Source: Yoonia sp. | GTDB lineage: Bacteria; Pseudomonadota; Alphaproteobacteria; Rhodobacterales; Rhodobacteraceae | Reading direction: 5' to 3' | DNA: 64,000 bases | Assembly: GCA_023955335.1 (NCBI GenBank) | Contig: JAGSGF010000007.1 | Coordinates: 1 to 64,000, forward strand | Part shown: one piece after another, positions 8,994 through 62,330 of the stretch | Numbering within the stretch: position 1 is the first letter of the stretch | Layout of the letters: each line of letters starts with the position of its first letter | Translations under genes and position numbers: made by a program | Notes under the pieces: model-generated | What the model was told of the DNA's origin: nothing | What the model saw: the letters and a program-made list of their open reading frames with translations, nothing else | The model's database searches: none

Positions 8994-9065
8994 AAGGGGC
9001 GCGCAAGCGCACATGACATTTTGATTGGCTCAACGCTGATGGTCGCGGACTTGGCTAAGGGCGTA

Positions 9066-9097
9066 GCCTCCGGCGGACATATTTGGGCTCGGAAAAA
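9066..9097 (+). repeat. Dispersed extragenic element, copy 1
   Basis: Reads GCCTCCGGCGGACATATTT followed by GGGCTCGGAAAAAT. The first 17 bases are identical, in inverse orientation, to a copy at 58274-58306, and a diverged copy lies at 62298-62327. It sits between the aldo/keto reductase and BKACE genes and does not code. Confidence 0.75.
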
Positions 9098-9164
9098 TAT
9101 GTCATCGCTTGCGCTTGGTGAGGGAATCGCAGAACGTCCGATCAGATTATCAGGGAAGAATGTC

Positions 9165-10079
9165 ATGCCACTGCAAATGAACCGTGAGGTGTTTATCACC
9201 GCTGCCGTTACTGGATCAGGTAGCACGCAAGACCGGAGCCCGCATGTGCCGCGGTCACCCAAGCAGATTGCCGAGAGTGCAATTGATGCGGCCAAAGCCG
9301 GTGCTGCGATTGTGCATTGCCATGTGCGTGACCCTGAAACGGGTGCGCCTAGCCGTGATCTGGCCTTGTACCGCGAGCTGACGGACCGTGTGCGTGACGC
9401 CGAAGTTGATGTTGTCCTGAACCTGACGGCTGGCATGGGTGGCGATATCATCTTTGGTGGTATTGAAGCACCGTTTCCGACGGTTGCCGGTACAGATATG
9501 GTTGGGGCGACTGAGCGTGTGGCCCATGTGGCCGAATGTCTGCCGGAAATTTGCACGCTTGATTGTGGCACGATGAATTTCGCCGAAGCCGATTATGTCA
9601 TGACCAACACGCCGGGTATGTTGGTGGCGATGGGCCGGATGATGACGGCTTTGGGTGTGAAGCCCGAGATCGAGGCCTTTGACACCGGTCACCTTTGGTA
9701 CGCCAAGCAACTGGTCAAGGATGGCGTCTTGGATAGTCCCGCGCTTGTTCAGCTTTGCATGGGCGTGCCTTGGGGCGCGCCTGATGACCTCAATACATTT
9801 ATGGCGATGGTTAACAACGTGCCTGACGACTGGACGTTCAGTGCGTTTGGTTTGGGCAGATCACAGATGCCGTATGTCGCTGCATCTGTGTTGGCTGGCG
9901 GGAATGTCCGTGTCGGGTTGGAAGACAACCTGATGCTGGATCGCGGCGTCTTGGCGACGAACGCGCAATTGGTTGAGCGTGCCGCTGGAATTGTCGAAAA
10001 CCTCGGGGCGCGGGTGATTGGGCCTGACGACGTGCGCGAGAAGCTTGGTTTGGTCAAACGCGCACCGGTTCATAAATGA
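9165..10079 (+). CDS. BKACE-family beta-keto acid cleavage enzyme (probable 3-dehydrocarnitine cleavage)
   Basis: Members of the BKACE family (DUF849) condense a beta-keto acid with acetyl-CoA and split it, giving acetoacetate and a new CoA ester. Family marks: FITAAVTGSG at the start, the metal-binding HCHVRDPETG, NLTAGMGGD, and the EAFDTGHLWYAKQL and GLEDN segments. Because a carnitine dehydrogenase/thioesterase fusion lies three genes downstream, the likely substrate is 3-dehydrocarnitine, giving betainyl-CoA plus acetoacetate; this is inferred from context. I start at MPLQMNREVF (304 residues), preceded by GGGAAG. The longer open frame begins inside a non-coding repeat. The stop overlaps the lipocalin start as ATGA. 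Confidence 0.85.
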   Translation: MPLQMNREVFITAAVTGSGSTQDRSPHVPRSPKQIAESAIDAAKAGAAIVHCHVRDPETGAPSRDLALYRELTDRVRDAEVDVVLNLTAGMGGDIIFGGIEAPFPTVAGTDMVGATERVAHVAECLPEICTLDCGTMNFAEADYVMTNTPGMLVAMGRMMTALGVKPEIEAFDTGHLWYAKQLVKDGVLDSPALVQLCMGVPWGAPDDLNTFMAMVNNVPDDWTFSAFGLGRSQMPYVAASVLAGGNVRVGLEDNLMLDRGVLATNAQLVERAAGIVENLGARVIGPDDVREKLGLVKRAPVHK

Positions 10080-10621
10080 GGGCGCTTTGGGTGCTGGCAC
10101 TTCTCGCGGCGTGTTCGGAACCGTTTGAGGGTGAACAGATTGGTGGCTTTGGTGATGTCTACCGCGATTTGGACGCGCCAATTGCGTCGAAGGCTGTGTT
10201 CGATGCCGAGCAGTATTTGGGAACTTGGTACGAGGTTGCCCGATATCCGGTGTTTTTTGAACGCGGATGCATCGGTGTGACCGCCACATACGGCATGCGT
10301 GCTGACGGAGCGATCTCCGTGCTGAACATTTGCCGGAACCCTGACGGGTCTGTCAAAAGCCGGATTGAAGGCAAAGCCGAGATCGTGGGTCCTGCGCGCC
10401 TGAAGGTAAGCTTTCCGTCCGTCCCGTTTGGTGCATCCGATTACTGGGTACTTTGGGTCGACGAAGGGTACCGTACAGCTGTTGTTGGTGCTCCGAATGG
10501 TAAATCCGGCTGGATTCTGAACAGAGATCCACAGATTCCGGCCGATCGGCTGAATGCAGCACGTGAAGTTCTGGATTTCAACGGGTATGATTTAGATCGA
10601 TTGATGGAGGTGCCACAATGA
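10076..10621 (+). CDS. Lipocalin-family lipoprotein (Blc-like)
   Basis: A 181-residue protein with a short signal and lipobox LAAC (Cys at residue 13), so probably a lipid-anchored envelope protein. The lipocalin signature GTWYEVARYP is present, followed by the family's CIGVTATY, and VLWVDEGYRTAVVG and GWILNRDP near the end, all as in Blc-type lipocalins that bind fatty acids or lysophospholipids. It overlaps BKACE by four bases (ATGA) and the next gene by four, so it is translationally coupled inside the carnitine operon. Why a lipocalin sits there is unknown; carrying long-chain acyl groups released from acylcarnitines is one speculative idea. Confidence 0.88.
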   Translation: MRALWVLALLAACSEPFEGEQIGGFGDVYRDLDAPIASKAVFDAEQYLGTWYEVARYPVFFERGCIGVTATYGMRADGAISVLNICRNPDGSVKSRIEGKAEIVGPARLKVSFPSVPFGASDYWVLWVDEGYRTAVVGAPNGKSGWILNRDPQIPADRLNAAREVLDFNGYDLDRLMEVPQ

Positions 10622-10884
10622 AGCGTTATGTTTTCGGATGTGTATTGGCCTTGGCCGCTTGTGACGAGGCTGCGATGACAACTGCCGGCGGTGGCGGGGG
10701 CTTTCGTGAGCTCCTGGTGATTGGGTCATCTATGACGTTTGAGCAATGCCGTACGCGTGGTGGCTTGATCATTCGTGATAGCGGCAGCCCGATGGTTGCC
10801 TGTGATCCAAATGTCATTCGTGCGCCTGTTCCTGTTGATGATTTTGACAACCCGACATCAAATACTGCTGCGTCTGGCGCATAA
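10618..10884 (+). CDS. Small putative lipoprotein in the carnitine operon
   Basis: An 88-residue protein that starts MKRYVFGCVLALAACDE, a lipoprotein signal with lipobox LAAC and an Asp after the cysteine. The mature part holds a five-glycine stretch, then two cysteines in FEQCRTRGGLIIRD and MVACDPNV that could form a disulfide. I do not recognise a named family. Its start overlaps the lipocalin stop (ATGA) and the dehydrogenase fusion starts 15 bases after it, so it belongs to the same operon. Function unknown. Confidence 0.72.
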   Translation: MKRYVFGCVLALAACDEAAMTTAGGGGGFRELLVIGSSMTFEQCRTRGGLIIRDSGSPMVACDPNVIRAPVPVDDFDNPTSNTAASGA

Positions 10885-10899
10885 ATAAAGGAGAACACG

Positions 10900-12354
10900 A
10901 TGGGGAAATCGGCAGCCATAATCGGCGGCGGAGTCATTGGTGGTGGCTGGGCAGCGCGTTTTTTGTTGATGGGGTGGGATGTACGGGTTTTTGACCCTGA
11001 CCCGGATGCGCAGCGTAAAATCGGCGAGGTGTTAGACAACGCGCGGCGGTCTTTGCCCGGCTTGTCCGATGTTGATCTTCCGCAAGAAGGTACGTTGTCG
11101 TTTCACGACGTAATGTCCGAGGCTGTGGACGGCGTTGCCTGGATTCAAGAAAGCGTGCCTGAGCGTCTGGAGTTGAAGCGCAAAGTCTACCAAACCTTGC
11201 AGGAACACTGCCCTGTTGATGCGATCATCGGTTCGTCCACCTCTGGGTTTAAGCCGTCTGAATTGCAGGGCTGTGCGACACGGCCAGAACAGATTGTGGT
11301 CACCCATCCGTTTAATCCGGTCTATCTTTTGCCTTTGATTGAACTGGTTCCGACGGATCAGAACCCGCCCGAGATGGTGGAAAAGGCTAAGGATATTCTG
11401 ACCAGTGTTGGGATGTACCCGCTGCATGTCCGCGCCGAAATTGATGCACATATTGCTGATCGTTTCCTGGAGGCGGTATGGCGCGAGGCGCTTTGGCTGA
11501 TCAAGGACGATATTGCGACCACGGAAGAAATTGACAACGCGATCCGCTATGGGTTTGGCTTGCGCTGGGCGCAGATGGGCCTGTTTGAAACCTACCGCAT
11601 TGCAGGCGGCGAGGCGGGCATGCGCCACTTTATCGAACAATTTGGCCCATGCCTGTCATGGCCATGGACCAAGCTGATGGATGTGCCAGAGCTGACAGAG
11701 GACCTGATTGATAAGATCGCAGGCCAATCTAACGACCAATCGGGCCATATGACCATTCGAGAGTTGGAACGCGCACGCGACAATAACCTTTTGACGATCC
11801 TGCGCGGGCTTAAGGCGCAGGACTTTGGTGCGGGCGCGTTGCTGAACGCGCAAGATGTCCGCTTGGGTCAACCTGCCGCGATGCCCGCTGATGTATCCGT
11901 GCCGTTGGAAACCATTCGCCGTGCCATTCCGTTGGATTGGACCGATTACAACGGGCACATGAGCGAGGCGCGTTATTTACAGGCCTTTGGTGATGCGACT
12001 GATCGGCTGATGGAAATCGTGGGCTGTGATGCGGATTATATCGCCAAAGGCGGCAGCTATTTCACCGCCGAGACCCACATCCGACATTTGGATGAAGTCC
12101 ACGCTGGCACGCGCATCCACATCGACACCCAAGTCCTTTTGGGGGCTGGCAAAAAGATGCATCTGTTCCACCGGATGTATGCGGATGATCGGTTGCTTGC
12201 GACGGGTGAACACATGCTGATCCATGTCAGCCTTGCAACGCGCCGTGGGTCTGAGCCGGCGCCAGATATTGCTGCCAAGCTGGGCCAGATCGCTGACGCA
12301 CATGCGACACTGCCCTTGCCCGAAGGGGCAGGCAAAGCCATTGGTGTCAGGTGA
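10900..12354 (+). CDS. lcdH: L-carnitine dehydrogenase fused to betainyl-CoA thioesterase
   Basis: A 484-residue two-domain enzyme. Residues 1 to about 320 form a 3-hydroxyacyl-CoA-dehydrogenase-like unit with the NAD-binding GGGVIGGGWAARF, an ESVPERLELK loop and HPFNPVYLLPLIELVP, matching L-carnitine dehydrogenase, which oxidises carnitine to 3-dehydrocarnitine. Residues about 330-484 are a hot-dog thioesterase with DWTDYNGHMSEARY. Such fusions are known from carnitine degradation, where the second domain hydrolyses betainyl-CoA to glycine betaine and CoA. With BKACE upstream, the whole three-step path from carnitine to glycine betaine is covered. AAGGAG precedes the ATG. The stop overlaps the next gene (GTGA). 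Confidence 0.88.
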   Translation: MGKSAAIIGGGVIGGGWAARFLLMGWDVRVFDPDPDAQRKIGEVLDNARRSLPGLSDVDLPQEGTLSFHDVMSEAVDGVAWIQESVPERLELKRKVYQTLQEHCPVDAIIGSSTSGFKPSELQGCATRPEQIVVTHPFNPVYLLPLIELVPTDQNPPEMVEKAKDILTSVGMYPLHVRAEIDAHIADRFLEAVWREALWLIKDDIATTEEIDNAIRYGFGLRWAQMGLFETYRIAGGEAGMRHFIEQFGPCLSWPWTKLMDVPELTEDLIDKIAGQSNDQSGHMTIRELERARDNNLLTILRGLKAQDFGAGALLNAQDVRLGQPAAMPADVSVPLETIRRAIPLDWTDYNGHMSEARYLQAFGDATDRLMEIVGCDADYIAKGGSYFTAETHIRHLDEVHAGTRIHIDTQVLLGAGKKMHLFHRMYADDRLLATGEHMLIHVSLATRRGSEPAPDIAAKLGQIADAHATLPLPEGAGKAIGVR

Positions 12355-13106
12355 CCCGCGCGTTGATCACTGCAGGTGCGTCGGGTATCGGCCGCGCGAT
12401 GGCGCAGGCTTATGCGGACGCCGGATTTGAGGTCTGGGTCACAGATATTGATACCGATGCGTTGAATGCGTTGCCGGAGGCGTGGCACTGCCATGCGGTA
12501 AGCGCAAATGATGAACCGGCAGTTGCCGCATTGTTTGCGCAGGTCGATGCTGCTGGCGGGCTAGATGTGCTTTGCGCAAACGCGGGCATTGCAGGACCAA
12601 CGGCAGCGATTGAGGACGTGGACCTGACTGACTGGCGGGCGTGTGTTTCTGTCAATTTGGAAGGCGCGTTTTTGGCGACCAAATACGCGGCTCCGATGAT
12701 GAAATCGGCGGGCAAGGGGGCGATTATCTATACGTCGTCGACGGCGGGTATCTATGGATATCCGAACCGTGCGCCATATGCTGCGGCCAAATGGGCGATC
12801 ATCGGGTTAATGAAAACCACTGCAATGGAATTGGGCCCGTTCGGTATCCGGGCCAATGCAATCTGTCCCGGTGCCGTCGAAGGTGACCGCATGGAAGGCG
12901 TGCTGGCGCGCGAAGCTGTGGCTAAAAACATGACCCGTGATCAAGTCTATGACGGCTACGCGGCAGGGACATCCATGCGCAGCTTTGTCGACGCATCTGA
13001 CATCGCCAACATGGCTGTTTTCCTCGGCACGGATGTATCACGCATGGTGTCAGGGCAGGTCATCTCGGTCGATGGTCACACCGAAAACCCTGACCCAAAG
13101 GTTTAG
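12351..13106 (+). CDS. Short-chain dehydrogenase/reductase
   Basis: Classical SDR of 251 residues. The cofactor loop is GASGIGRAMA, the structural NAG motif is CANAGIAGP, and the active site has SSTAGIYG with Tyr in PYAAAKWA (YxxxK). It starts with GTG, overlapping the stop of the dehydrogenase fusion by four bases, so it is coupled to the carnitine operon. The substrate is not evident. It may act on a carnitine-related hydroxy acid or reduce the acetoacetate product to 3-hydroxybutyrate; the latter is a guess from pathway position. Its end overlaps the convergent XRE regulator gene by four bases. Confidence 0.85.
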   Translation: MTRALITAGASGIGRAMAQAYADAGFEVWVTDIDTDALNALPEAWHCHAVSANDEPAVAALFAQVDAAGGLDVLCANAGIAGPTAAIEDVDLTDWRACVSVNLEGAFLATKYAAPMMKSAGKGAIIYTSSTAGIYGYPNRAPYAAAKWAIIGLMKTTAMELGPFGIRANAICPGAVEGDRMEGVLAREAVAKNMTRDQVYDGYAAGTSMRSFVDASDIANMAVFLGTDVSRMVSGQVISVDGHTENPDPKV

Positions 13107-13963
13107 GAAAGCGCGACGAGCAGTTTGTCTATGAACAGCCCGACACCACGCGACGGAATGGATGCTGCGCGGACGAGCCCGTCAAAGTGTTCCGTCATCG
13201 CGGCAATCCTGTCGCGGTCGCGGAACACCAAATAGTTTTGCCCCAAATATATCACAGCCAAGAGCGGTCCAAAGACGGTGACGGGCGCAGAAAATAACTG
13301 TCGGTGGTCAAACAGATGAAGCCGCATTGACGGATACAGTTGGGTATTCAAATCGCGCAGATTTTCCAATTGTGCGCGGCGCAAGGCCACGGGAATTCCG
13401 GTATAGTACCCCTCGGCACGGGCGAAACTGGTCAACTCGCATTCTGAAAATGCAATTTCATAGTCTGACCTTGCCTGACGCATCCATTCTAACCGATCAC
13501 GGCTGGCACCGACCGCCTGATCGGTGGTTTTGCCCAACGATGGCGCGTATTCCCACCGCAGCATCGCATCGATTTTGAGCATATCAGGCAAACCCGCAGG
13601 GACATGCCGGATTTTGTAGCCTTCCGCCTCTTGGTGCCACGCAAAAATCGCATCATCAATTAAAGTGCGGGGCGCGTGGGTCATCGACATGGCCGCGGCG
13701 ACCAACTCTGCGGCTTGTTCGGGGTGATCGGACAGGCCCAAAAGCCAATCGGCGCTTACACCTAAAGCGGCAGCACATCCGGCAACAAGCTGGGCATTGG
13801 GCAGTCGTGCTCCGGTGTCTTTGAGCAGTTGAGACAGCGTGGATCGATCCACACCTGCTTGTCGCGCCAATTTGCTTTGATTTGATCCGGCAAGCGTAAT
13901 GGCCGTTGCCAACCGACTGCGAAACAAGGCAGCTCGGGCGTTTTTGTCGATATTTGTCATCAT
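13103..13963 (-). CDS. XRE-family transcriptional regulator facing the carnitine operon
   Basis: DNA-binding protein of about 286 residues with an N-terminal Cro/CI helix-turn-helix (QSKLARQAGVDRSTLSQLL, then LPNAQLVAGCAAALGVSADWLLG). The following 200 residues contain no recognised enzyme motif and may sense a ligand. The end overlaps the carnitine operon's last gene, convergent, by four bases. Regulation of that operon is plausible from position but not shown. No clear ribosome-binding site separates the start choices; I use MMTNIDKNARAALF, while an ATG six codons upstream (13981) is possible. Confidence 0.8.
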   Translation of the reverse strand: MMTNIDKNARAALFRSRLATAITLAGSNQSKLARQAGVDRSTLSQLLKDTGARLPNAQLVAGCAAALGVSADWLLGLSDHPEQAAELVAAAMSMTHAPRTLIDDAIFAWHQEAEGYKIRHVPAGLPDMLKIDAMLRWEYAPSLGKTTDQAVGASRDRLEWMRQARSDYEIAFSECELTSFARAEGYYTGIPVALRRAQLENLRDLNTQLYPSMRLHLFDHRQLFSAPVTVFGPLLAVIYLGQNYLVFRDRDRIAAMTEHFDGLVRAASIPSRGVGLFIDKLLVALS

Positions 13964-14044
13964 TGGGGTATTTATGCACAAACTTTGATATTTGTGAACT
14001 GCTGTCTAACTGCGCATTTGATTGGTGATGGCATAGGGTAACTT

Positions 14045-20491: not shown

Positions 20492-20770
20492 ATGTCACCA
20501 GAAAATGCGCAGACAATTGCCTTGCAAGCCCTTGGTTGGCTGGTTGGCAATGACGAGCTTTGCCCCGTGTTTTTGGGTGCCACTGGCGGATCTGTTGACG
20601 ATCTGCGCACACAAGCCGCCGTTCCCGCGTTTCAGGCGGCTGTCCTCGATTTCTTAACGATGGACGATTCGTGGGTGATGGAATTCTGCGATTTGCATGG
20701 CTTGAAATATGACCAGCCCCTGATGGCACGCTACGCATTGCCCGGCGCAGAGGCCGTACACTGGACCTAA
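20492..20770 (+). CDS. DUF3572 family protein
   Basis: A 92-residue protein of the alphaproteobacterial DUF3572 family, recognised by ALQALGWLVGNDELCPVFLG near the start and ALPGAEAVHW at the end. No catalytic motif is known. In this group it commonly sits beside pleD, as here, where the two genes diverge over about 95 bases. The 3' end overlaps the convergent dehalogenase gene by four bases. Function unknown. Confidence 0.85.
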   Translation: MSPENAQTIALQALGWLVGNDELCPVFLGATGGSVDDLRTQAAVPAFQAAVLDFLTMDDSWVMEFCDLHGLKYDQPLMARYALPGAEAVHWT

Positions 20771-23700
20771 AGCTGAACGGTGATTTCACCATCTGGGTCT
20801 GCGGCGCGGCTTTGACAAAGGATCATCGTGTTTTGCCGCTGTGCCTGTGACAGTACAAAATCGCGATGTTCCACGTTTCCATCGATTACGGTGCATTTGC
20901 ACACGCCACACAGGCCATCGGCGCATTTCACATCGACATGAACGCCTGCGCGCTGCAGTGCGTCTGAGGCAGCTTCATCGGCAGTGACGTCAATTCTACG
21001 CCCGTCGGGCAGCCGTATCGCAAACGGGTGGTTTGCATAGTCAGGCGCGTCAGGCACAGCGAAATATTCCAGGTGTCGCTGGTCTTCGGGAAACCCGTTC
21101 TTGCTGGCGGCATCGATAACGGCCGACATATACAGGTCAGGACCGCAGGTATAAACATGCGCACCAACATAGGGCTTGAGCGCGAGGTTTAAGTCAGCGC
21201 GCGAGCCTTCATCGCTAATATGAAGATGAACGTGCGCAGCCCAAGACTGTTTTTCCAGCAAGGCGACAAATCCGGCATCGGCCCGTGTGCGCACGCTATA
21301 GTGCAGGTCAAATGGGCGCCCCAATGCATGCAAACGATGCGCCATCGCGATCATGGGTGTGACGCCGATCCCACCACCCATCAAATAGCTGTGCACCGCG
21401 TCCTCAATAAGTGGGAAATGGTTGATCGGCTTGGACGTAAACACGCGACGGCCTTTTGTGAAAATGCGGTGCATAAGCTTTGATCCACCGCGCCCCGTGT
21501 CCTCTCGCAGGACGGCAATCTGGTACGATTTGCGGTTCGCGGGGTCACCTGACAACGAATACTGCCGAAAAAATTCGGGGGCGACGACAACGTCAATATG
21601 TCCGCCTGCGGTGAACGGAGGCAAATCTGCGCCGTTTGGGTCGGACAGTTCATAGAGCGTGATACCGTCCGTCAGCGGATCAGCTTTGGTCACGATCAAC
21701 TGCAAAACGGGGGTATCGCCGGAATCTGCCGTATAGACATGCTCTGGCGGGGTGCCAGCGGCGCGGCGTACGCGATGTTCATGGGCTGTGATCATCCCGG
21801 CATAGGCTTGAATGCCGGCCTCGCGGTCCATCGGGAATGGCCACGGATAGGGGGGCGGCGCAAGCGGTGCGGGGTAAACCGCCAGCGTTTGGTCCGCGAA
21901 CTTTAGGTCAAGATCAGGCTGCAAGTCGCGCGCATTCACCGGATCGCGGGCAGGGTGGTATGCGCCATCATCGACCATTTCCAGATCCCACCACCATTTT
22001 TTCACGGCATTGATCGACCCGTTACCAAACTTATCATCCAATGCGGCCAATGCTTTGGCCGCTTTGGGGACCGCCATCGCAAGCTTGCGAAAAGGGGCTT
22101 CGGCGAACAGACCTTCAAGGTTCCACGGGCAAGTTTTCATACAGCGCCCACACATCGCACCATTCTTTTGGCTGACGCGGTAGGTTGTGCATTTCTGGCT
22201 GTCGGATTTCCAAATCTCGTATCCGTTGAACATCAGTTTCGGGCCTGCGGTGATCGCACCTGACGGGCATTCACGGGCGCATTTGTTGCAGGCTTCACAG
22301 AACTTTTGCAGCCCAAAATCAATCGGTTTATCATGGGCCATCGGCATATTTGTGGTGACGATGCCGGATTTCAGTCGCGGGCCAAGGAACGGATTTAGGA
22401 TGACCTCGCCGATACGGCTGACTTCACCGAGACCGGAAAGCAACAGCAGCGGCGGGTGCAAAACCTCGTCATCCATCACCGAATGGACGCGGGCTGTATA
22501 GCCGAGGGTGCGAATGTGTTGGGCCAGAACGCCCCCAAGCAGCGAAAACCGAAGGTAAGCCCGCATAGATTGGGCGCATGCGATCCAGTCGTCGCCAGAC
22601 GCGCCTTCCATTGTCTCGTGACCTTGGTCGATGATCATGGAAATGGCGTTGGAGTGGTAAGGCGTGATTACCTCGCCCGTCGCATCGTGGCTGTAGTAGG
22701 CGTAATCTGGACAAGCAGACAGGCCGACGGCATCAACGCCAAGAAAATAAAGTGCAGCTTTGATGTTTGTGGCATTTTCTTCGGGATTTTTAGCGCTTTT
22801 TTGTGTGGCAGCTTCACCGTCTTGTAGGACCGTCAGTGCGCCCAATGATGGGCGAAAGGCAAAGGCACTTGCGGATTTGCGCACGTAGTTGCCGTTCTTT
22901 GTGGCCTCTTGCACAGGTTTTCCCAGATCGCCGAACAAGGCGCGGGCAAACAGATTTGCGCGTTTGGGGACGCGGGCCACATTAGGCGCATCGATATATG
23001 TGGTGGGGTCGTCTACACGTTTGAGGGTTTCAAACGGATGCGGGCCAGCCTTAAAATCCCGTTTGGCATAGACGTCGGCGGTGCGGGCTGATTTTGCATG
23101 ATCGCCAGTGCCCATCCGGTAGCTGACGGTTGGCTTTTGTCCCGCAACGATCGGTTTATCGGCCGCAAAATCCAAAGTGGTCGTGACCGCGGCTAAGCCA
23201 AACCGGTCACCGGTGAACGGATTGACCAGATTGCCATCTTGCCCCGCAACAAGGCCAGCACATACCGCCAATGCACCCAAATGCACGTCGCTTGCCGCCA
23301 TCGAATGGGCCCGCGCGTCGTGTCCCAACGTGCGGATATAACTGGCCAAGGTCACAGCCGTTTCGATCCCGCGCAGGCAGCTGCGTTGGGGCAAAGCATC
23401 TTTGATCCAGTCCGCGCCATCTTCGTCTGATCGCGGGGCGCGCGGGTTGGCATATAAAAAGACGATTGCGTGGGTATGGTGCCGGCAATCGGCGGCGGGC
23501 AGCGCCATGCTTTCGCGCAAACCTGCCATGATGACGTCGATACCAGCGGCCAGCGTTTTGGGCTGCATTATGCGCAGTCTATCTGCCAAACGGCCCACGT
23601 CAGGGTTGATAATCGGGGCGTCCAGCCATGTGGATGCAGGGATTTCACATGTCCCAACCATATCGGCATCGCAGAAATAGCCAAATGATTTAAGGTGGTT

Positions 23701-23952
23701 AGCCCGTTCTTGCAGATCAGTCGGGATCTCTGCGGCTTCTTTCTTGACCATCCCGTCGCGCGTGGCATCCAGCATCGCTTGATAATCCTGCATCGCGTTC
23801 ACGATACTGGCAGGGTCATCCGGGCGTCTGAACGACAGACCGGTCATGGGCGCCAGATGCGAGAGGTCGCAGACATCCGTCCGGTGAAGTTTTTCCAACG
23901 GGTAGGGACCAAGATGCATAGGGCGGGAACGGTAAGACCTGAGTTTGAGCAT
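20767..23952 (-). CDS. Self-sufficient catabolic reductive dehalogenase (cobalamin, Fe-S, fused flavin/ferredoxin reductase)
   Basis: A roughly 1060-residue cytoplasmic fusion. Residues 1 to about 690 are a reductive dehalogenase: two related vitamin-B12/nitroreductase-like halves (each with an IRTLG-Y/H-A-R segment), then two [4Fe-4S] sites, CEACNKCARECP (about 550-562) and CTTYRV followed by CGRCMKTCP (about 587-611). From about 760 on it is a phthalate-dioxygenase-reductase-like module: RQYSLSGDP for flavin, GGGIGVTPM for NAD(P)H, and a C-terminal plant-type [2Fe-2S] site, CADGLCGVCKC, with a later Cys. This is the BhbA/NpRdhA-type layout, which removes halogen from aromatic compounds using NAD(P)H. 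No Tat signal and no membrane-anchor gene are present. Start uncertain: MLKLRSYRSR is used; 23919 and 24006 are alternatives. Confidence 0.9.
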   Translation of the reverse strand: MLKLRSYRSRPMHLGPYPLEKLHRTDVCDLSHLAPMTGLSFRRPDDPASIVNAMQDYQAMLDATRDGMVKKEAAEIPTDLQERANHLKSFGYFCDADMVGTCEIPASTWLDAPIINPDVGRLADRLRIMQPKTLAAGIDVIMAGLRESMALPAADCRHHTHAIVFLYANPRAPRSDEDGADWIKDALPQRSCLRGIETAVTLASYIRTLGHDARAHSMAASDVHLGALAVCAGLVAGQDGNLVNPFTGDRFGLAAVTTTLDFAADKPIVAGQKPTVSYRMGTGDHAKSARTADVYAKRDFKAGPHPFETLKRVDDPTTYIDAPNVARVPKRANLFARALFGDLGKPVQEATKNGNYVRKSASAFAFRPSLGALTVLQDGEAATQKSAKNPEENATNIKAALYFLGVDAVGLSACPDYAYYSHDATGEVITPYHSNAISMIIDQGHETMEGASGDDWIACAQSMRAYLRFSLLGGVLAQHIRTLGYTARVHSVMDDEVLHPPLLLLSGLGEVSRIGEVILNPFLGPRLKSGIVTTNMPMAHDKPIDFGLQKFCEACNKCARECPSGAITAGPKLMFNGYEIWKSDSQKCTTYRVSQKNGAMCGRCMKTCPWNLEGLFAEAPFRKLAMAVPKAAKALAALDDKFGNGSINAVKKWWWDLEMVDDGAYHPARDPVNARDLQPDLDLKFADQTLAVYPAPLAPPPYPWPFPMDREAGIQAYAGMITAHEHRVRRAAGTPPEHVYTADSGDTPVLQLIVTKADPLTDGITLYELSDPNGADLPPFTAGGHIDVVVAPEFFRQYSLSGDPANRKSYQIAVLREDTGRGGSKLMHRIFTKGRRVFTSKPINHFPLIEDAVHSYLMGGGIGVTPMIAMAHRLHALGRPFDLHYSVRTRADAGFVALLEKQSWAAHVHLHISDEGSRADLNLALKPYVGAHVYTCGPDLYMSAVIDAASKNGFPEDQRHLEYFAVPDAPDYANHPFAIRLPDGRRIDVTADEAASDALQRAGVHVDVKCADGLCGVCKCTVIDGNVEHRDFVLSQAQRQNTMILCQSRAADPDGEITVQL

Positions 23953-24018
23953 GGTGTTGACACCGTCCGCGCTCCGTTGCTTGGTGTCAACAACGACCCT
24001 GCCCAAAAGGACTGCAAA

Positions 24019-24714
24019 ATGATCAAAGGCATCATCTTTGACAAGGACGGCACCTTGTTTGATTTCAACGCGACTTGGGGGGCATGGACACGGGGTATGA
24101 TCGCGTCCGAAGTGGGGGGTGATCCTGCGCGCATTGCCGCGATGGCCGACCTGTTGGGCTATGATCTGGACGCCGGTGTGTTTTTACCAAGCAGCATTGT
24201 GATCGCCGAAACGGTATCTATCGTTGCGGATGCGATGTTGGGGCTTTTGCCTGATGTGACAAAGCCGGAGTTGATTGGGCGCATGAAAGACGCGACCAAA
24301 CATGTGCCTCAGGTGGAACCGACGCCGTTACGCCCTGTGTTAGAAGCATTGCGCGACATGGGTTTGACGCTTGGCGTTGCCACCAATGACGCTGAAGAGC
24401 CTGCACACGCCAATTTGGCCCATGTCCGTGACATGTTTGATTTTATCGCCGGTTTTGACAGTGGCTTTGGCGGCAAACCTGCGCCGGGTCAGTTGTTGGG
24501 GTTCTGCGCGCAGACAGGCCTCGACCCTGCGGCGTGTATTATGGTTGGCGACAGCTTGCATGATTTGGACGCGGGTCGTGCGGCGGGCATGATGTGTGTT
24601 GGTGTGCTGACAGGACCTGCGGACCGGGCCGAGCTTGCGCCGCGCGCGGACGTTGTGCTGGGCACCATCGCGGAATTGCCAGCGTGGGTTGCTGGGCAAA
24701 ACACCATCCGATAA
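24019..24714 (+). CDS. HAD-family hydrolase (phosphoglycolate-phosphatase-like)
   Basis: A 231-residue HAD hydrolase. Motif I is FDKDGTLFD, motif II lies in LGVATNDAEE (threonine), motif III lysine is in GFGGKPAPGQ, and motif IV is MVGDSLHDLDAG. A helical cap lies between motifs I and II (about residues 15-90), as in HAD-IA phosphatases. The start ATG follows AAAAGGA. It diverges from the dehalogenase gene with only about 65 bases between the two starts, so the two may share control. Whether it acts on a phosphate ester or a haloacid cannot be told; the phosphatase reading fits better. Confidence 0.88.
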   Translation: MIKGIIFDKDGTLFDFNATWGAWTRGMIASEVGGDPARIAAMADLLGYDLDAGVFLPSSIVIAETVSIVADAMLGLLPDVTKPELIGRMKDATKHVPQVEPTPLRPVLEALRDMGLTLGVATNDAEEPAHANLAHVRDMFDFIAGFDSGFGGKPAPGQLLGFCAQTGLDPAACIMVGDSLHDLDAGRAAGMMCVGVLTGPADRAELAPRADVVLGTIAELPAWVAGQNTIR

Positions 24715-24804: not shown

Positions 24805-26358
24805 ATGGCTGATACACCACGCAAACGGGGCGGTGGCCGCGCAGGGAACGCAAGCCGCAGAGGGTCTGCTGTGATCGACCAGATGCCGTGGCGCATCCCC
24901 GTCAATACGGACAATCCGACAGAACCGCTTGGCCCCGAAGGTGTCGCCGCGATCCACAATGGTGCGATGACTATTCTCGAAGACATCGGCATTGAGTTTC
25001 TGAACGAAGAAGCCCTTGCTCTGTTCAAAAAAGCAGGCTGTACCGTCAACGGAACCAACGTGCGTATGGGCCGCGACTGGGTGATGGAAATGTTGGGCCA
25101 CGCGCCTGCACAATTTGACATCACACCGCGTAATCCAGACCGTAAGATCACCATTGGCGGCAAACATATACTGTTTGGCAACGTGTCGTCGCCTCCGAAT
25201 TATTATGACCTTGAAATCGGCAAAAAGGTCACGGGCAACCGCGAGCAATGCGCCAATCTGCTGAAGCTGACGCAGTACTTTAACTGCATCCATTTTGCGG
25301 GCGGGTATCCGGTTGAACCACAAGATATTCACGCCTCTGTCCGGCACTTGGACGTGCTGTATGACAAGTTAACGCTGACTGACAAATCCATGCACGCCTA
25401 TAGCCTTGGCCGCGAACGCGTCGAAGACGTGATGCAGATGGTGCGTATCTCAGCGGGGCAAACCGAGGACGAATTCGAAGCCAAGCCGCATATGTACACC
25501 AACATCAACTCGACCTCGCCGCTTAAGCACGATGTGCCGATGATCGACGGATGCTTGCGCTGTGTGCGGCGTGGGCAGGCGGTTGTTGTGACACCATTTA
25601 CGCTTGCGGGTGCGATGGCCCCTGTGACGATGTCAGGGGCGGTGACGCTTTCGATTGCCGAAGCATTGTCCGCCATTGCGCTGTTCCAATACGTCCGCCC
25701 CGGTGCGCCCTGTGTCATTGGGACGTTCACCAGCAACGTGGACATGAAATCTGGCGCGCCTGCCTTTGGTACACCAGAATACATGCGGGCCACCCAAATG
25801 ACGGGGCAGATGGCGCGGTTCTACGGGCTTCCTATGCGGGCATCTGGTGTCTGTGCGGCCAATGTGCCTGACGGACAGGCCATGTGGGAAACATCCAATT
25901 CATTATGGTCTGCCGTGCAGTCCGGCACCAACATGGTCTACCACGGCGCGGGCTGGCTCGAGGGTGGGTTAATCGCCTGTCCGGAAAAATTCATCATGGA
26001 TTGCGAAGTTATCCAGATGATCCAACGCTACATGGAACCAGAAATCGTGGCGACAACGCCAGATGACATCGCCATCGACGCAATCCGCGAAGTGGGGCCA
26101 AACGGCCATTTCTTTGGGATACAACATACCCAAGATCGATACGAAGACGCATTTTATGCACCGATTGTGTCCGACTGGCGTAACTTTGAAGCATGGGACG
26201 AGGCTGGCGCGGAGTGGACAGCCGAACGCGCCCATCACAAATTCAAAGACATCATAAACACGTTTGAGGCCCCAGCTATGGATGAAGGTATCCGCGAAGA
26301 ACTGCAAACTTTTGTGGCAAAGCGCAAAGAAGAAGGCGGCGCACCGACGGATTTCTAA
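24805..26358 (+). CDS. Trimethylamine methyltransferase (MttB) family protein, non-pyrrolysine type
   Basis: A 517-residue protein of the MttB superfamily (COG5598). Family segments include AMTILEDIGIEFLNEEAL near the start, GNVSSPPNYYDLEIGKK, TPFTLAGAMAPVTMSGAV and MVYHGAGWLEGGL. The frame is uninterrupted and has no in-frame amber codon, so it is not a pyrrolysine enzyme. Characterised non-pyrrolysine members demethylate quaternary amines such as glycine betaine or carnitine and pass the methyl to a corrinoid protein. No corrinoid-binding partner or activator is encoded in this window. AGAGG precedes the ATG. The N-terminus has an unusual basic, glycine-rich stretch (RKRGGGRAGNASRRG). The substrate is inferred as a methylated amine. 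Confidence 0.87.
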   Translation: MADTPRKRGGGRAGNASRRGSAVIDQMPWRIPVNTDNPTEPLGPEGVAAIHNGAMTILEDIGIEFLNEEALALFKKAGCTVNGTNVRMGRDWVMEMLGHAPAQFDITPRNPDRKITIGGKHILFGNVSSPPNYYDLEIGKKVTGNREQCANLLKLTQYFNCIHFAGGYPVEPQDIHASVRHLDVLYDKLTLTDKSMHAYSLGRERVEDVMQMVRISAGQTEDEFEAKPHMYTNINSTSPLKHDVPMIDGCLRCVRRGQAVVVTPFTLAGAMAPVTMSGAVTLSIAEALSAIALFQYVRPGAPCVIGTFTSNVDMKSGAPAFGTPEYMRATQMTGQMARFYGLPMRASGVCAANVPDGQAMWETSNSLWSAVQSGTNMVYHGAGWLEGGLIACPEKFIMDCEVIQMIQRYMEPEIVATTPDDIAIDAIREVGPNGHFFGIQHTQDRYEDAFYAPIVSDWRNFEAWDEAGAEWTAERAHHKFKDIINTFEAPAMDEGIREELQTFVAKRKEEGGAPTDF

Positions 26359-33876: not shown

Positions 33877-35067
33877 TTATGCGCCCGCCGCTGTGCCGAT
33901 GGTGTCGCCAGTGCCAGTCTTTCGGGCTTTGGCGGATGCCAGCGTTGTCTTTAACTCTGCCTCCATCTTTTTCAGCTCTGCTTCGGCCTCAGCGCGCTTG
34001 CGCTTACCTTCGTCAGCGATCTCAAGGCTTTCGTTGATCGTAGCGATCAAGTTGGCGTTGGCGTCTTTCACAGCGTTGATATCGAATACACCACGTTCCA
34101 TTTCCTGACGGATAACCTTGTTGGCATCGCGCAGGTTTTGGGCGTTTGACGTAAGCAGATCGTTCGTCAGGTCATTGGCATCGCGCACCGCTTCGGCAGC
34201 TTCGGCAGAGCGTTGGATGGTGACGGCTTGGGCCAGTTGGGTTTCCCAAAGCGGGACCGTGTTGACCAAGGTGGAATTGATCTTGGTCACCAGCGACTTG
34301 TCATTTTCCTGCACAAGACGGATTGATGGCAAGGATTGCATCGTCACCTGACGGGTCAGTTTAAGATCATGCACGCGGCGTTCCAGATCATCGCGGGCAG
34401 AGCGCATGTCGCGCAATTCCTGGGCCATCATGACCGCCTTATTCTCGGCGGCCTTTGATACCTGTAATTCCTTTTTGGGAATGACTTTGGTGTCCAATTC
34501 GTCGAGCTTGGCTTCGCCTGCAGCGATATAAAGCGCCAATTCGTCGTAGAACTGCAGCGTTTTGTCATACAGAACATCAAGGCTTTCGATGTCTTTAAGC
34601 AGCACATGTTCGTGGCGCAGTAGATCATCGGTGATGTTGTCTATCTGGCCCTGAACATTCTCGAACTTAGCAACAAACTTGGCCATTGGGGCTGCGCGGC
34701 CCAACAGTTTCTCCCACCAAGACCGCTTGCGGCGGACGTCCAGCTCGGACACGGAAAATCCGCGAATTGTGCTGACGATGTTGCGCAGGCTGTCACCGGC
34801 AGGGCCGATATCTTTGTTGCGTACACCGGCCAACATGGCTTGGCTGATCTCTTGCAGTTCGGCCTGAGCACCCGACCCAAAGGACACAATTGAATGGGTA
34901 TTAGACATGTCGACTTCGGCCATACGGCGCTTAATCTCAGCGGTCGTCGGCTTGTCAGCAGCAGCCATTGTGACCAGCTCGCCCTTTGGTTCTGCCAAAA
35001 TAACAGCTGTTACTTTTTCAACTTCGGCCAGCGCGGCCTCGGCTTTTTTACGGATCGTATCAGACAT
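33877..35067 (-). CDS. TelA-like toxic anion resistance protein
   Basis: A 396-residue soluble, strongly helical protein of the TelA/KlaA family (PF05816), associated with tellurite and cell-envelope stress resistance. Family segments: IVSFGSGAQAELQEISQAML near residue 60, a coiled-coil-rich middle with DVLYDKTLQFYDELALYI, QSLPSIRLVQENDKSLV and ETQLAQAVTIQRSAEAAEAV. Close coupling to XpaC upstream (15-base gap) is the usual partner arrangement. The mechanism is not known. Confidence 0.92.
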   Translation of the reverse strand: MSDTIRKKAEAALAEVEKVTAVILAEPKGELVTMAAADKPTTAEIKRRMAEVDMSNTHSIVSFGSGAQAELQEISQAMLAGVRNKDIGPAGDSLRNIVSTIRGFSVSELDVRRKRSWWEKLLGRAAPMAKFVAKFENVQGQIDNITDDLLRHEHVLLKDIESLDVLYDKTLQFYDELALYIAAGEAKLDELDTKVIPKKELQVSKAAENKAVMMAQELRDMRSARDDLERRVHDLKLTRQVTMQSLPSIRLVQENDKSLVTKINSTLVNTVPLWETQLAQAVTIQRSAEAAEAVRDANDLTNDLLTSNAQNLRDANKVIRQEMERGVFDINAVKDANANLIATINESLEIADEGKRKRAEAEAELKKMEAELKTTLASAKARKTGTGDTIGTAAGA

Positions 35068-35082
35068 ATATTGTCCCCTTTA

Positions 35083-35955
35083 CTATTTTATACGCACGCC
35101 TTCGCGGCGCAAACGGTCGCGCAGCACTTTGATTTCAATATCCATGTCGCTTTTGTCATCGAGCAACATCTTATTTGTGCGGGCCGCGAAATTCTGCTCA
35201 AGGTCGCCAAGTAGCGCCTCGTAGTCAGTGCGGGCCGCTTGGTTTTTTGATCGGCGGTAGACATCGACAAACTTGATCGTCGCGTCCTTCGCACCCATCA
35301 AATAGACGCCCAAAAACTTGCGGGCACCGGTTAGGTCACGCGGATCTTCTTCGACCGTGCGGATCATCTTGCGAGCGGCGGCTTGGAACGCGCCAACGCG
35401 GATGTCGAGCGCGCGGTCGCCCAACCCGTCAATCTGGTCTTTCATAACCGACAAATGCAGCTCGGCCTCGTCCACGACGCGGGCGACGCGGTCTTGTTGG
35501 AATGTGTCAATGCCTTCCATGCGTTTATCGCGCATCGGGTCCAGGCCAAATGCAGCGACATGCACGGCAACACCTGCCGCACCGTAAAGCAGCGCAGATA
35601 GCATGTTCGCATCATGGGCAAACGATGCCAGCGCTATGCCGACCCCCGTCAATGCAGACGCGAGCATCTTGCGCGGAACGGCAGGGCGGCGGGCGACCTT
35701 GCGGGCGTTGTACGCCGCCTCGGCGCGCAGACCTTCGCCCAGCAACCAAGCGGCTGCGACCAGCGCGCCAGCGCCCATAAGCCCGGTTATCAAGGCCACC
35801 GGTCCGTCGGAAAACGTCGTCGCCACCAGCACAATCGCGGGCGGGAACAACACGCCAGCACGGCCAGCGCTTGCATCTACCTCGCGGTCATCAATCACCA
35901 CTTCAGATGCATCCGACCCGTCAGGGCTAAATTTTCCACCGAATTTTTTGGCCAT
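35083..35955 (-). CDS. XpaC-like (5-bromo-4-chloroindolyl phosphate hydrolysis family) protein
   Basis: A 290-residue protein with four hydrophobic stretches grouped between residues 35 and 135, then a helical C-terminal cytoplasmic domain (MEGIDTFQQDRVARVVDEAE onward). It matches the XpaC family, whose name comes from an indirect phenotype and not from a known enzyme. XpaC genes regularly pair with telA, as here. A 28-codon membrane-peptide gene ends one base before its start. Confidence 0.85.
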   Translation of the reverse strand: MAKKFGGKFSPDGSDASEVVIDDREVDASAGRAGVLFPPAIVLVATTFSDGPVALITGLMGAGALVAAAWLLGEGLRAEAAYNARKVARRPAVPRKMLASALTGVGIALASFAHDANMLSALLYGAAGVAVHVAAFGLDPMRDKRMEGIDTFQQDRVARVVDEAELHLSVMKDQIDGLGDRALDIRVGAFQAAARKMIRTVEEDPRDLTGARKFLGVYLMGAKDATIKFVDVYRRSKNQAARTDYEALLGDLEQNFAARTNKMLLDDKSDMDIEIKVLRDRLRREGVRIK

Positions 35956-60215: not shown

Positions 60216-60785
60216 ATGCCGAAATTAGGAATGGAACCGATCCGCCGCGCCGCCCTTGTTAAGGCGACGATAGCGGAAATTGGTGCAGCTGGATCACTGG
60301 ATGTGACCGTGAGCCGGATTGCAAAGCGTGCGGGCATGTCTTCTGCATTGGCCCATCATTATTTTGGCGGAAAGAACCAGATATTTGAGGCAGCAATGCG
60401 TCAGATTCTGCGCGATTATTCCGCCGAGGTGCGCACCGCCTTGGCCGCAGCTACAGACCCCGCCGCCCGCGCACGAGCAATTGTGCATGCGAACTTTGCG
60501 CAGTCTTGCTTTGATCCCGCCACGGTGTCTGCATGGATGACGTTCTATGTGCAGGCGCAAACTAATCCTGATGCGCTACGCCTTTTGCGTGCTTATCAGC
60601 GTCGGTTGCGGTCCAATTTGACCCATGCGCTGCGCACGCTTTGCGATGACCCGCGCGGGGCCGCCGATACAATGGCCGCATTGATTGATGGCCTGTATAT
60701 TCGTGCGGCGCTGACTGCCCCCGATGCAAACCCGGAGCGTACCGCCTTGGCCGCGCTTTCTACACTGACCAAAGGTGCCGTATGA
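60216..60785 (+). CDS. betI: Choline-responsive repressor BetI (TetR family)
   Basis: A 189-residue TetR-family repressor. The helix-turn-helix lies at residues 25-45 (VSRIAKRAGMSSALAHHYFG), and the N-terminal MPKLGMEPIRRAALVKATI is characteristic of BetI. It releases its operator when choline is present. A dyad upstream is a candidate site. It overlaps betC by four bases (ATGA) and leads the operon betI-betC-betB. Confidence 0.95.
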   Translation: MPKLGMEPIRRAALVKATIAEIGAAGSLDVTVSRIAKRAGMSSALAHHYFGGKNQIFEAAMRQILRDYSAEVRTALAAATDPAARARAIVHANFAQSCFDPATVSAWMTFYVQAQTNPDALRLLRAYQRRLRSNLTHALRTLCDDPRGAADTMAALIDGLYIRAALTAPDANPERTALAALSTLTKGAV

Positions 60786-62290
60786 CCCAACCGAATATCC
60801 TGATTATCATGGTGGACCAGCTGAACGGGACGTTGTTCCCTGACGGCCCGGCTGACTGGTTGCATGCGCCTAATCTTAAGGCGTTGGCTGCGCGGTCGAC
60901 ACGGTTTGCAAATGCCTACACGGCGTCGCCGCTATGCGCCCCTGCGCGGGCCTCGTTTATGTCCGGCCAATTGCCCAGTCGCACAGGCGTCTATGATAAC
61001 GCCGCCGAATTTGCGTCGTCGATCCCGACCTATGCCCACCACTTGCGCCGTGCCGGATACCAGACCTGTTTGTCAGGCAAGATGCACTTTGTCGGCCCTG
61101 ACCAAATGCACGGGTTCGAGGACCGCTTGACGACTGATATCTACCCCGCCGATTTTGGCTGGACCCCAGATTACCGCAAACCCGGTGAGCGGATTGATTG
61201 GTGGTATCATAATATGGGCTCTGTCACTGGTGCAGGCGTGGCCGAGATTTCCAATCAAATGGAATATGACGATGAGGTCGCATATCACGCGACCCGCAAG
61301 CTCTATGATTTATCGCGCGGGGGCGATGCCCGCCCATGGTGCCTGACCGTCAGCTTCACACATCCGCATGATCCGTATGTCGCCCGCAAAAAGTACTGGG
61401 ACCTGTACGAGGATTGCGAACATCTTATGCCTGACATCGGCCCGATCCCCTATGCCGACCAAGACGCCCATTCGCAGCGTATTTTGGACGCAAATGACCG
61501 TGATAACTTCAATATCACCGAAGATCACATCGTTCGCGCGCGCCGTGCATATTTTGCAAACATCAGCTACATCGACGATAAAGTCGGCGAGATCTTGCAA
61601 ACGCTGAAAGACACTCGCCAAGAGGCTAAGATTATCTTTGTGTCCGATCATGGCGACATGCTTGGCGAACGCGGGCTATGGTTCAAGATGTCGTTTTACG
61701 ATGGATCTGCGCGCGTACCGCTGATGATCTCGGCACCAGAAATGGAACCGGGCCTGACGACCACCCCTGTCAGTAGCATCGACATTTTGCCCACCCTTTG
61801 TGATCTGGCGGGCGTTGATATGAACGAGGTCATGCCGTGGACCGACGGTCAATCCATCGTGCCACTGGGGCAGGGGGCTGACCGATCCGAACCTGTTGCG
61901 ATGGAATATGCCGCCGAAGGGTCATATGCGCCGCTGGTGTCGTTGCGGTATGGCAAGTGGAAATACAATCGCTGTGCGCTTGATCCTGATCAATTGTTCG
62001 ATATGGACGCAGACCCGCACGAGCTGACCAATCTTGCGGATCACCCTGATCATCAAGGCACCGTCACCCAACTGCGTGCCAAATCCCAAGCCCGTTGGGA
62101 TCTCGACACATTTGATGCGGCCGTGCGTCAATCTCAAGCTGGCCGGTGGGTCGTCTACGAGGCGCTACGCAACGGGTCCTACTATCCTTGGGACTATCAG
62201 CCGCTGCAAAAAGCGTCCGAGCGGTACATGCGCAACCACATGGACCTGAACATCCTTGAAGATAATAAACGTTTCCCACGCGGTGAATAA
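60782..62290 (+). CDS. betC: Choline-sulfatase
   Basis: A 502-residue type I sulfatase that hydrolyses choline-O-sulfate to choline and sulfate. The formylglycine signature is [12 protein letters not shown], with the modified Cys at residue 52 (CxPxR). Metal-site residues are in [11 protein letters not shown] and [15 protein letters not shown]. The choline-sulfatase C-terminal region is present ([20 protein letters not shown]). It lies between betI and betB, so choline-sulfate can be used as an osmoprotectant source. A diverged extragenic repeat follows. Confidence 0.96.
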
Positions 62291-62297
62291 TCGCCTC

Positions 62298-62327
62298 GCT
62301 TTTTTCAAAATACTCCCCCCGGAGGGC
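62298..62327 (-). repeat. Dispersed extragenic element, diverged copy 3
   Basis: GCTTTTTTCAAAATACTCCC followed by CCCGGAGGGC: an inverse, diverged copy of the element at 9066 and 58274. Its GGAGGG lies five bases before the betB ATG and serves as that gene's ribosome-binding site. Confidence 0.6.
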
Positions 62328-62330
62328 CCC

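Follow-up and report, generated by a model that had tools for sequence, protein, structure and literature searches.

What does a reductive dehalogenase joined to its own reductase do in the genome of an aerobic-type bacterium, and how is it controlled? The question is raised by one gene, rdhA, in a 64,000-nucleotide stretch of Yoonia sp. (Rhodobacteraceae) DNA (assembly GCA_023955335.1, contig JAGSGF010000007.1, positions 1 to 64,000), the whole of which we call the window. Taken together, our sequence comparisons make it likely that this gene encodes a dehalogenase of the BhbA/JtRdhA kind, that the enzyme would act on ortho-bromo- or ortho-iodophenols whose dehalogenated products serve as carbon, and that MarR control of the gene has been lost in the window lineage. 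The gene and its parts are:

20767..23952, minus strand: rdhA-reductase fusion gene (ATG at 23952, stop ending at 20767; intact open reading frame, 1061 amino acids)
21748..23952, minus strand: dehalogenase part, residues 1-735 (4ras match)
20767..21720, minus strand: phthalate-dioxygenase-reductase-type part, residues 745-1061 (2pia match and motifs)
22264..22299, minus strand: first [4Fe-4S] motif, CEACNKCARECP, residues 552-563, fitting CXXCXXCXXXCP
22126..22152, minus strand: second [4Fe-4S] motif, CGRCMKTCP, residues 601-609, fitting CXXCXXXCP

The first-pass annotation, made from the letters alone, gave this gene at exactly the coordinates where we find an intact frame of 1061 codons, and its description of a dehalogenase with two [4Fe-4S] sites and a flavin/NAD(P)H/[2Fe-2S] reductase in one chain agrees with model matches, structural matches and motifs alike. 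The protein scored 207.2 bits against the NCBIfam model TIGR02486 'reductive dehalogenase' (cut-off 160.35), and phmmer searches of the PDB matched residues 3-104 and 153-732 to NpRdhA (4ras, E 4.1e-162) and residues 750-1052 to phthalate dioxygenase reductase (2pia, E 3.7e-48). Fer2 matched at 38.1 bits, and the reductase part carries a plant-type [2Fe-2S] motif, C-x4-C-x2-C-x27-C (C1010, C1015, C1018, C1046), along with the motifs RQYS (796) and GGGIG (859), which we take to be the FMN and NAD(P)H sites. A second, weaker TIGR02486 match in the N-terminal half (23140-23715, minus strand; 34 bits, under the cut-off) agrees with the 4ras alignment and is probably the vestigial domain described for NpRdhA. 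As the first reading had it, the protein shows no sign of the Tat signal by which respiratory reductive dehalogenases are told apart: a search of its first 60 residues for the pattern [ST]RRxF[LI]K gave no match. The gene is under purifying selection, with dN/dS of 0.064-0.102 against five relatives, for three of which the synonymous distance is already high (1.74-1.75); a sixth, locus L042 of Tranquillimonas alkanivorans, was saturated at synonymous sites and gave no estimate.

On these comparisons, the window protein is predicted to be a catabolic reductive dehalogenase that is self-sufficient in the way of BhbA and JtRdhA, a kind already characterized. BhbA of Comamonas sp. 7D-2 (WP_015585978, plasmid pBHB) has the same one-chain layout in 1071 amino acids, is 49.6% identical to the window protein (522/1052) with the same catalytic residues and cysteines, and likewise exceeds the TIGR02486 cut-off (203.3 bits). 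Its gene lies on a conjugative plasmid amid transposases and ring-cleavage genes, whereas the window's clade has a shared chromosomal place, and no MarR gene was found adjoining it. JtRdhA of Jhaorihella thermophila (WP_104007082), which we liken by its published description, likewise joins RdhA to PDOR in a self-sufficient enzyme of marine origin and shares the conserved residues; it is NADPH-dependent, active in air, takes brominated and iodinated phenols, and is inhibited by chloro analogues (PMC10463259). Because self-sufficient enzymes have thus already been characterized, one of them marine, the window enzyme is not a new kind. The catalytic part of NpRdhA from Nitratireductor pacificus (PDB 4ras, 6zxu, 6zy0) is 49.5% identical to the window protein (residues 209-618, 200/404) and has the Tyr, Lys, Arg and cysteines in common with it. 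NpRdhA had been credited at first with the full layout as well; instead, it has no fused reductase (PMC10463259), and its 704-residue 4ras chain covers only residues 3-732. Ros_A3X954 (Roseobacter sp.) is, like the window protein, a marine roseobacter catabolic enzyme without a Tat signal, and it debrominates 2,6-dibromophenol; it is of a shorter kind, with [4Fe-4S] motifs at residues 283-345 as against 552-609, and its description, in the part available, gives two [4Fe-4S] clusters and mentions no reductase part (PMC13101508). Identity to the window protein is 64.7% for Jannaschia sp. M317, 62.9% for Ruegeria TM1040, 58.8% for Aminobacter sp. SS-2016, and 49.7% for Nitratireductor sp. OM-1.

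The Pfam model PF13486 (Dehalogenase) had no match to the window protein at E up to 1, and none anywhere in the window's genome or in 14 control genomes. Run against the window protein, L089 and L090, it also misses BhbA and the Ruegeria TM1040 enzyme, so its silence reflects a gap in the model, which does not define the catabolic subfamily. Pfam-based surveys may therefore undercount self-sufficient dehalogenases of the BhbA type, as PF13486 fails on three of three tested.

The catalytic residues were located in an alignment that set NpRdhA residues 209-618 against the window protein and homologues from 86 full-length loci; these amount to 81 distinct proteins, some genomes having come in via two collections:

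22555..22557, minus strand: codon of Tyr466 (NpRdhA Y426, proton donor; alignment, role from PMC7565698)
22369..22371, minus strand: codon of Lys528 (NpRdhA K488; alignment, role from PMC7565698)
22177..22179, minus strand: codon of Arg592 (NpRdhA R552, phenol oxygen contact; alignment, role from PMC7565698)

In this alignment, NpRdhA F291, S422, M423, Y426, K488 and R552, which are conserved between NpRdhA and JtRdhA (PMC10463259), correspond to F335, S462, M463, Y466, K528 and R592 of the window protein. These six and the eight [4Fe-4S] cysteines recur unchanged in 87 of 87 sequences (the window and the 86 homologue loci), and the catalytic Tyr and Lys that the first-pass annotation wished to see confirmed are among them. 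For NpRdhA, Y426 is described as the proton donor, with K488, R552 and S422 near the phenol oxygen (PMC7565698).

By analogy with NpRdhA and JtRdhA, from which we infer its activity, electron path, halogen and substrate, the window enzyme probably removes bromine or iodine from naturally occurring phenols, and it is probably cytoplasmic and oxygen-tolerant. NAD(P)H would deliver a hydride to FMN, and electrons would move singly via the [2Fe-2S] cluster and then the two [4Fe-4S] clusters to base-off cobalamin. An ortho-brominated or ortho-iodinated phenol (e.g. 3-bromo-4-hydroxybenzoate or bromophenol) would bind above the cobalt, where Lys528, Arg592 and Ser462 would hold its hydroxyl; the halogen would depart to cobalt, and a proton would come from Tyr466. 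The dehalogenated phenol would then be used for carbon, a 4-hydroxybenzoate product possibly passing through PobA and PcaHG. An algal bromophenol as the natural substrate is a guess.

The genome can be asked whether it would provide for such a pathway. The models for CobQ and CobN both exceeded their cut-offs, which makes B12 synthesis likely, and the search for cobalamin genes proposed at the outset thus came out positive. CtaD scored 672.9 bits, just over its cut-off of 670.75, which agrees with the aerobic-type genome first proposed. PobA and PcaH were over cut-off and lie together on contig C82, with a second, weaker match beside PcaH that is presumably PcaG; with PobA and PcaHG in the genome, 4-hydroxybenzoate formed from brominated 4-hydroxybenzoate could be used.

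How widespread is the gene, and does it keep a fixed place? In a survey of the bacterial family at about one genome per genus, in which some matches are partial, a homologue at E 1e-100 or better was found in 151 of 394 genomes, the window's own included (142 of 347 among better assemblies). Full-length homologues are present in 26 of the 35 congeners searched, the best copies being 75-91% identical in 19 and 62-64% in 7. In one further congener, G017 (C2:1477513-1480691), the fusion is divided between overlapping frames that cover query residues 1-779 and 777-1060, through either a frameshift or a natural split. Congener G033 has three copies (C1:305737-308925, C2:1283008-1286202, C2:3377488-3380622), 58-63% identical to the window protein; one has an internal TAG, and each has a MarR gene about 3 kb off that is 41-42% identical to the MarR of locus L042. 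The neighbors of rdhA in the window are:

20492..20770, plus strand: DUF3572 gene, convergent, overlapping the rdhA stop by 4 bp; conserved neighbor
24019..24714, plus strand: HAD-family hydrolase gene, divergent neighbor of rdhA; position conserved
24805..26358, plus strand: MttB-family methyltransferase homologue; conserved neighbor

In many members of the window's clade, rdhA occupies one shared chromosomal place. We counted neighbors at 80 named loci (L009-L088; 77 with a complete open reading frame, L070, L071 and L072, which have no stop, being left out), and these are the best-scoring of 252 candidates, so the counts tilt to the window's own clade. The HAD gene is divergent and at most 1.3 kb upstream of rdhA in 58 of 74 loci with enough sequence; MttB lies beyond it in 43 of 71, a convergent DUF3572 gene is downstream in 50 of 71, and on the DUF3572 side the neighbor beyond, a GGDEF response regulator (PleD-type), is found in 47 of 67. 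At 66% identity or less (17 loci), the HAD neighbor is present in 5 (L077, L079, L083, L084, L114) and absent from 12; L084 and L114 are probably one genome, and the flanks of L112-L119 extend only about 1.5 kb. The MttB-family protein scored 735.7 bits with PF06253 and 285.2 bits with the trimethylamine model (cut-off 525), and its gene and rdhA are two presumably corrinoid-linked genes kept side by side in 43 of 71 loci. We did not adopt a functional tie between rdhA and its HAD and MttB neighbors: among 16 loci with sufficient upstream sequence and no HAD neighbor, 11 still have MarR adjacent, although Leisingera and its near relatives supply nine of them, which leaves few independent cases. 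Locus L051, on a contig binned as Pimelobacter (Actinomycetota), is a Rhodobacteraceae locus with the same neighbors and probably a binning error.

The use of the phenol as carbon can be weighed against other roles for the gene. The same enzyme class could serve detoxification, taking the bromine or iodine off halogenated tyrosine derivatives or off phenols of algae or sponges that act as inhibitors, and leaving the product unused; this is quite possible, with the balance leaning modestly against it. The window's rdhA stands alone, on another contig (C22) than pobA and pcaHG (C82), in contrast to the BhbA gene, whose neighbors on the plasmid are ligA and a gene for an extradiol dioxygenase, and to the Nitratireductor OM-1 copy near pobA, and a shared chromosomal place would suit a general protective role. 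Set against this, the genome does hold PobA and PcaHG for a 4-hydroxybenzoate product, and gene position says little either way. A reductase of some non-halogenated substrate, with the dehalogenase fold re-used as in the action of QueG on epoxyqueuosine, strikes us as very improbable. QueG and RdhA are one cofactor class (PMC10463259), the QueG model TIGR00276 finds a weak match in the window protein, and the literature examined, available in part, yielded no assay of a window-clade member. That match, however, is of 28.5 bits (cut-off 200) against 207 bits for the reductive dehalogenase model, which rules out the epoxyqueuosine reductase identity that the first-pass annotation had held in reserve; a separate weak TIGR02486 match on contig C56 of the same genome is presumably QueG, and the halophenol-holding residues of NpRdhA show no change in any of the 87 sequences. 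Hardly credible at all is a decayed or horizontally passing catabolic gene, functionless in the window lineage. It would account for the missing regulator gene and for the split copy in G017 and the internal TAG in G033, but the window frame is open over 1061 codons with the dN/dS values given above, full-length homologues persist in 26 of 35 congeners, and the HAD gene adjoins in 58 of 74 testable named loci.

If the enzyme is a catabolic dehalogenase, what would regulate it? The gap between the HAD gene and rdhA is 66 bp in the window and often about 600 bp in relatives, where the longer gap holds a MarR-family gene directly before rdhA on the same strand (PF12802 over cut-off in three of three tested). 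Such a gene adjoins rdhA in 50 of 102 unique relatives, a locus being scored as lacking it when four MarR queries gave no tblastn match at E 1e-4; L080, whose MarR gene is more than 550 bp from rdhA, was not counted as adjacent, and the tree, palindrome and spacing counts exclude duplicate rows and those shorter than 900 residues. On a FastTree tree of 103 unique rows including the window (MarR adjacent in 50, not in 53; local supports only, with a long-branch warning for L150 and L089), the MarR label changes 11 times, compared with a mean of about 35 in shuffles. The window sits in a 24-row clade without MarR (support 99), and in the larger 88-row clade that holds it MarR is present in 48 of the 87 others. 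The marR-rdhA arrangement recurs in Aminobacter, a genus of another order, Jannaschia has a divergent MarR, and tblastn found no MarR in the Ruegeria TM1040 region. The earlier statement that no regulator lies nearby therefore holds for the window, in that no MarR of this kind adjoins its gene, but the absence is probably a derived state, because 50 of 102 unique relatives carry MarR directly upstream.

Most MarR loci share a palindrome before marR, TTGACA-N-TGTCAA: of the 49 unique loci scored, 41 agree with it at 11 or more of its 13 positions and 21 perfectly, against 42 of 4900 dinucleotide shuffles at the same threshold; as the palindrome was derived from the loci in which it was counted, the count is descriptive and no independent test, and the divergent L149 was not scored. 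The most distant copy, in Aminobacter, matches at 12 of 13 positions. An in-frame marR ATG stands 2-5 bases past the palindrome in 34 of the 41 loci, and the distance from the marR stop to the rdhA start is -2 to 38 bases in 38 of 41 and 60, 66 and 71 in the rest, so that the two genes appear to be spaced as in an operon. Upstream, GACANTGTCAA is preceded at a distance of 17 bp by TTGACA, or by a variant differing in one letter, in 17 of the 41 loci (15 bp in 5, 18 bp in 2). In roughly half of the relatives, MarR would thus bind TTGACA-N-TGTCAA at its own promoter and control both itself and rdhA. MarR proteins on dehalogenase or bromo-hydroxybenzoate genes have precedents in Rdh2R of Dehalococcoides, in whose rdh clusters a marR gene acts as a negative regulator (PMC6299228), and in BhbR2 of Pigmentiphaga kullae H8, an activator of bromo-hydroxybenzoate genes (PMC12016517). 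The candidate operator found here, beside a self-sufficient catabolic rdhA, differs from the palindrome that BhbR2 binds, TTGATT-N5-AATCAA (PMC12016517). Among the literature matches listed, no paper described MarR beside a self-sufficient rdhA; subscription papers fall mostly outside this coverage, and the result is not proof of absence.

What, then, remains upstream of the window's rdhA? The 66-bp gap (23953-24018) between it and the divergent HAD gene contains a perfect inverted repeat:

23955..23992, no strand: perfect 10-bp inverted repeat TGTTGACACC / GGTGTCAACA, 18 bp apart (gap sequence)
23985..23990, minus strand: TTGACA, candidate rdhA -35 box, separated by 17 bp from the half operator (marR-promoter comparison)
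23957..23967, minus strand: GACGGTGTCAA, 4 bp before the ATG, candidate remnant (right half) of the relatives' MarR operator (marR-promoter comparison)

Read toward rdhA, the order is TTGACA, 17 bp, GACGGTGTCAA, 4 bp, ATG, and the 17-bp spacing is that of 17 of the 41 relatives' marR promoters. The pattern TTGACAC-N20-GTGTCAA occurs exactly only once in the genome, at this repeat. From this arrangement we infer a deletion of marR that ran from its start codon to that of rdhA, which would leave rdhA behind the old marR promoter with half of its operator; rdhA would now be read from that promoter and would probably be constitutive or under another control.

The repeat could also be nothing of the kind: two facing -35 boxes, or a site at which some unrelated regulator serves rdhA and the HAD gene together, with no remnant of a MarR operator in it, a plausible reading but less likely than not. 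TTGACA is the sigma-70 -35 consensus, the repeat stands between two divergent genes, and in the window's clade TTGACA is kept in 23 of 23 unique members while the whole window-type repeat is kept in only 15. Among those 15, however, ACGGTGTCAA beside the start codon is kept in 15 and the preceding G in 14, with variable spacer letters, and ACGGTGTCAA lies 17 bp from TTGACA, just as GACANTGTCAA does in 17 of 41 marR promoters.

Several points count against a catabolic dehalogenase that has lost its MarR regulator. For the enzyme, the literature examined, available in part, yielded no report of activity for the window protein or a member of its syntenic clade, and no transporter or ring-cleavage gene adjoins rdhA in the window. 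The pocket walls also differ from NpRdhA at six residues (NpRdhA to window: F290 to L334, K307 to T351, F310 to Y356, P311 to V357, A419 to C459, N452 to V492), so the exact substrate is not readable from the sequence, and substrate and halogen may differ. For the regulator, the 11 label changes mean that the marR-rdhA pairing is not strict; 52 of 102 relatives have no adjacent MarR, by a tblastn search that could miss divergent genes; a good palindrome is missing at 8 of 49 MarR loci; 24 of 41 marR promoters lack TTGACA at 17 bp; and within the window's own clade the window-type repeat is missing from 8 of 23 unique members. In favor of a loss, neither the perfect full palindrome TTGACANTGTCAA nor a close MarR was found in the window's genome, the best MarR match at E 1e-6 or better being 36% over 67 residues. 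A reversed control pattern is equally absent, so the lack of the palindrome is not unusual in itself, and with an assembly 95% complete the absence of MarR is likely, not certain.

Three other loci in the window deserve mention. Positions 9021-13981 encode a BKACE enzyme, a 3-hydroxyacyl-CoA dehydrogenase-thioesterase fusion, a short-chain dehydrogenase and an HTH regulator, a cluster that we presume is likely for carnitine or betaine catabolism. At 60216-63782, a BetI-type regulator, a choline-sulfatase-like gene and an aldehyde dehydrogenase stand in a row resembling a choline sulfate to betaine operon. At 33877-35955, a TelA-family gene adjoins a PF10112 gene named for a halogenated dye substrate, with no reason to tie it to dehalogenation.

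In conclusion, what is new here is the spread of rdhA in a bacterial family, its shared place, the MarR gene and palindrome in about half of the relatives, and the apparent loss of MarR in the window lineage. Tentatively, and not far short of an even chance, these would make reductive debromination an old and largely vertical trait of marine Rhodobacteraceae, with one place for rdhA and ancestral MarR control via TTGACA-N-TGTCAA, from which Yoonia/Loktanella lost marR from start codon to start codon, rdhA taking over its promoter. The MarR protein and its palindrome would offer a handle on the substrate, as a ligand that alters MarR binding could name the natural one. If the history is right, rdhA in Yoonia/Loktanella would be made without MarR, as would suit a niche in which halogenated phenols are met steadily and not just now and then. 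In the literature examined, available in part, self-sufficient dehalogenases are presented mainly as pollutant tools; the occurrence of homologues in 151 of 394 genomes, with one chromosomal position common to many members of the window's clade, suggests that they have a natural part in the marine bromine or iodine cycle.

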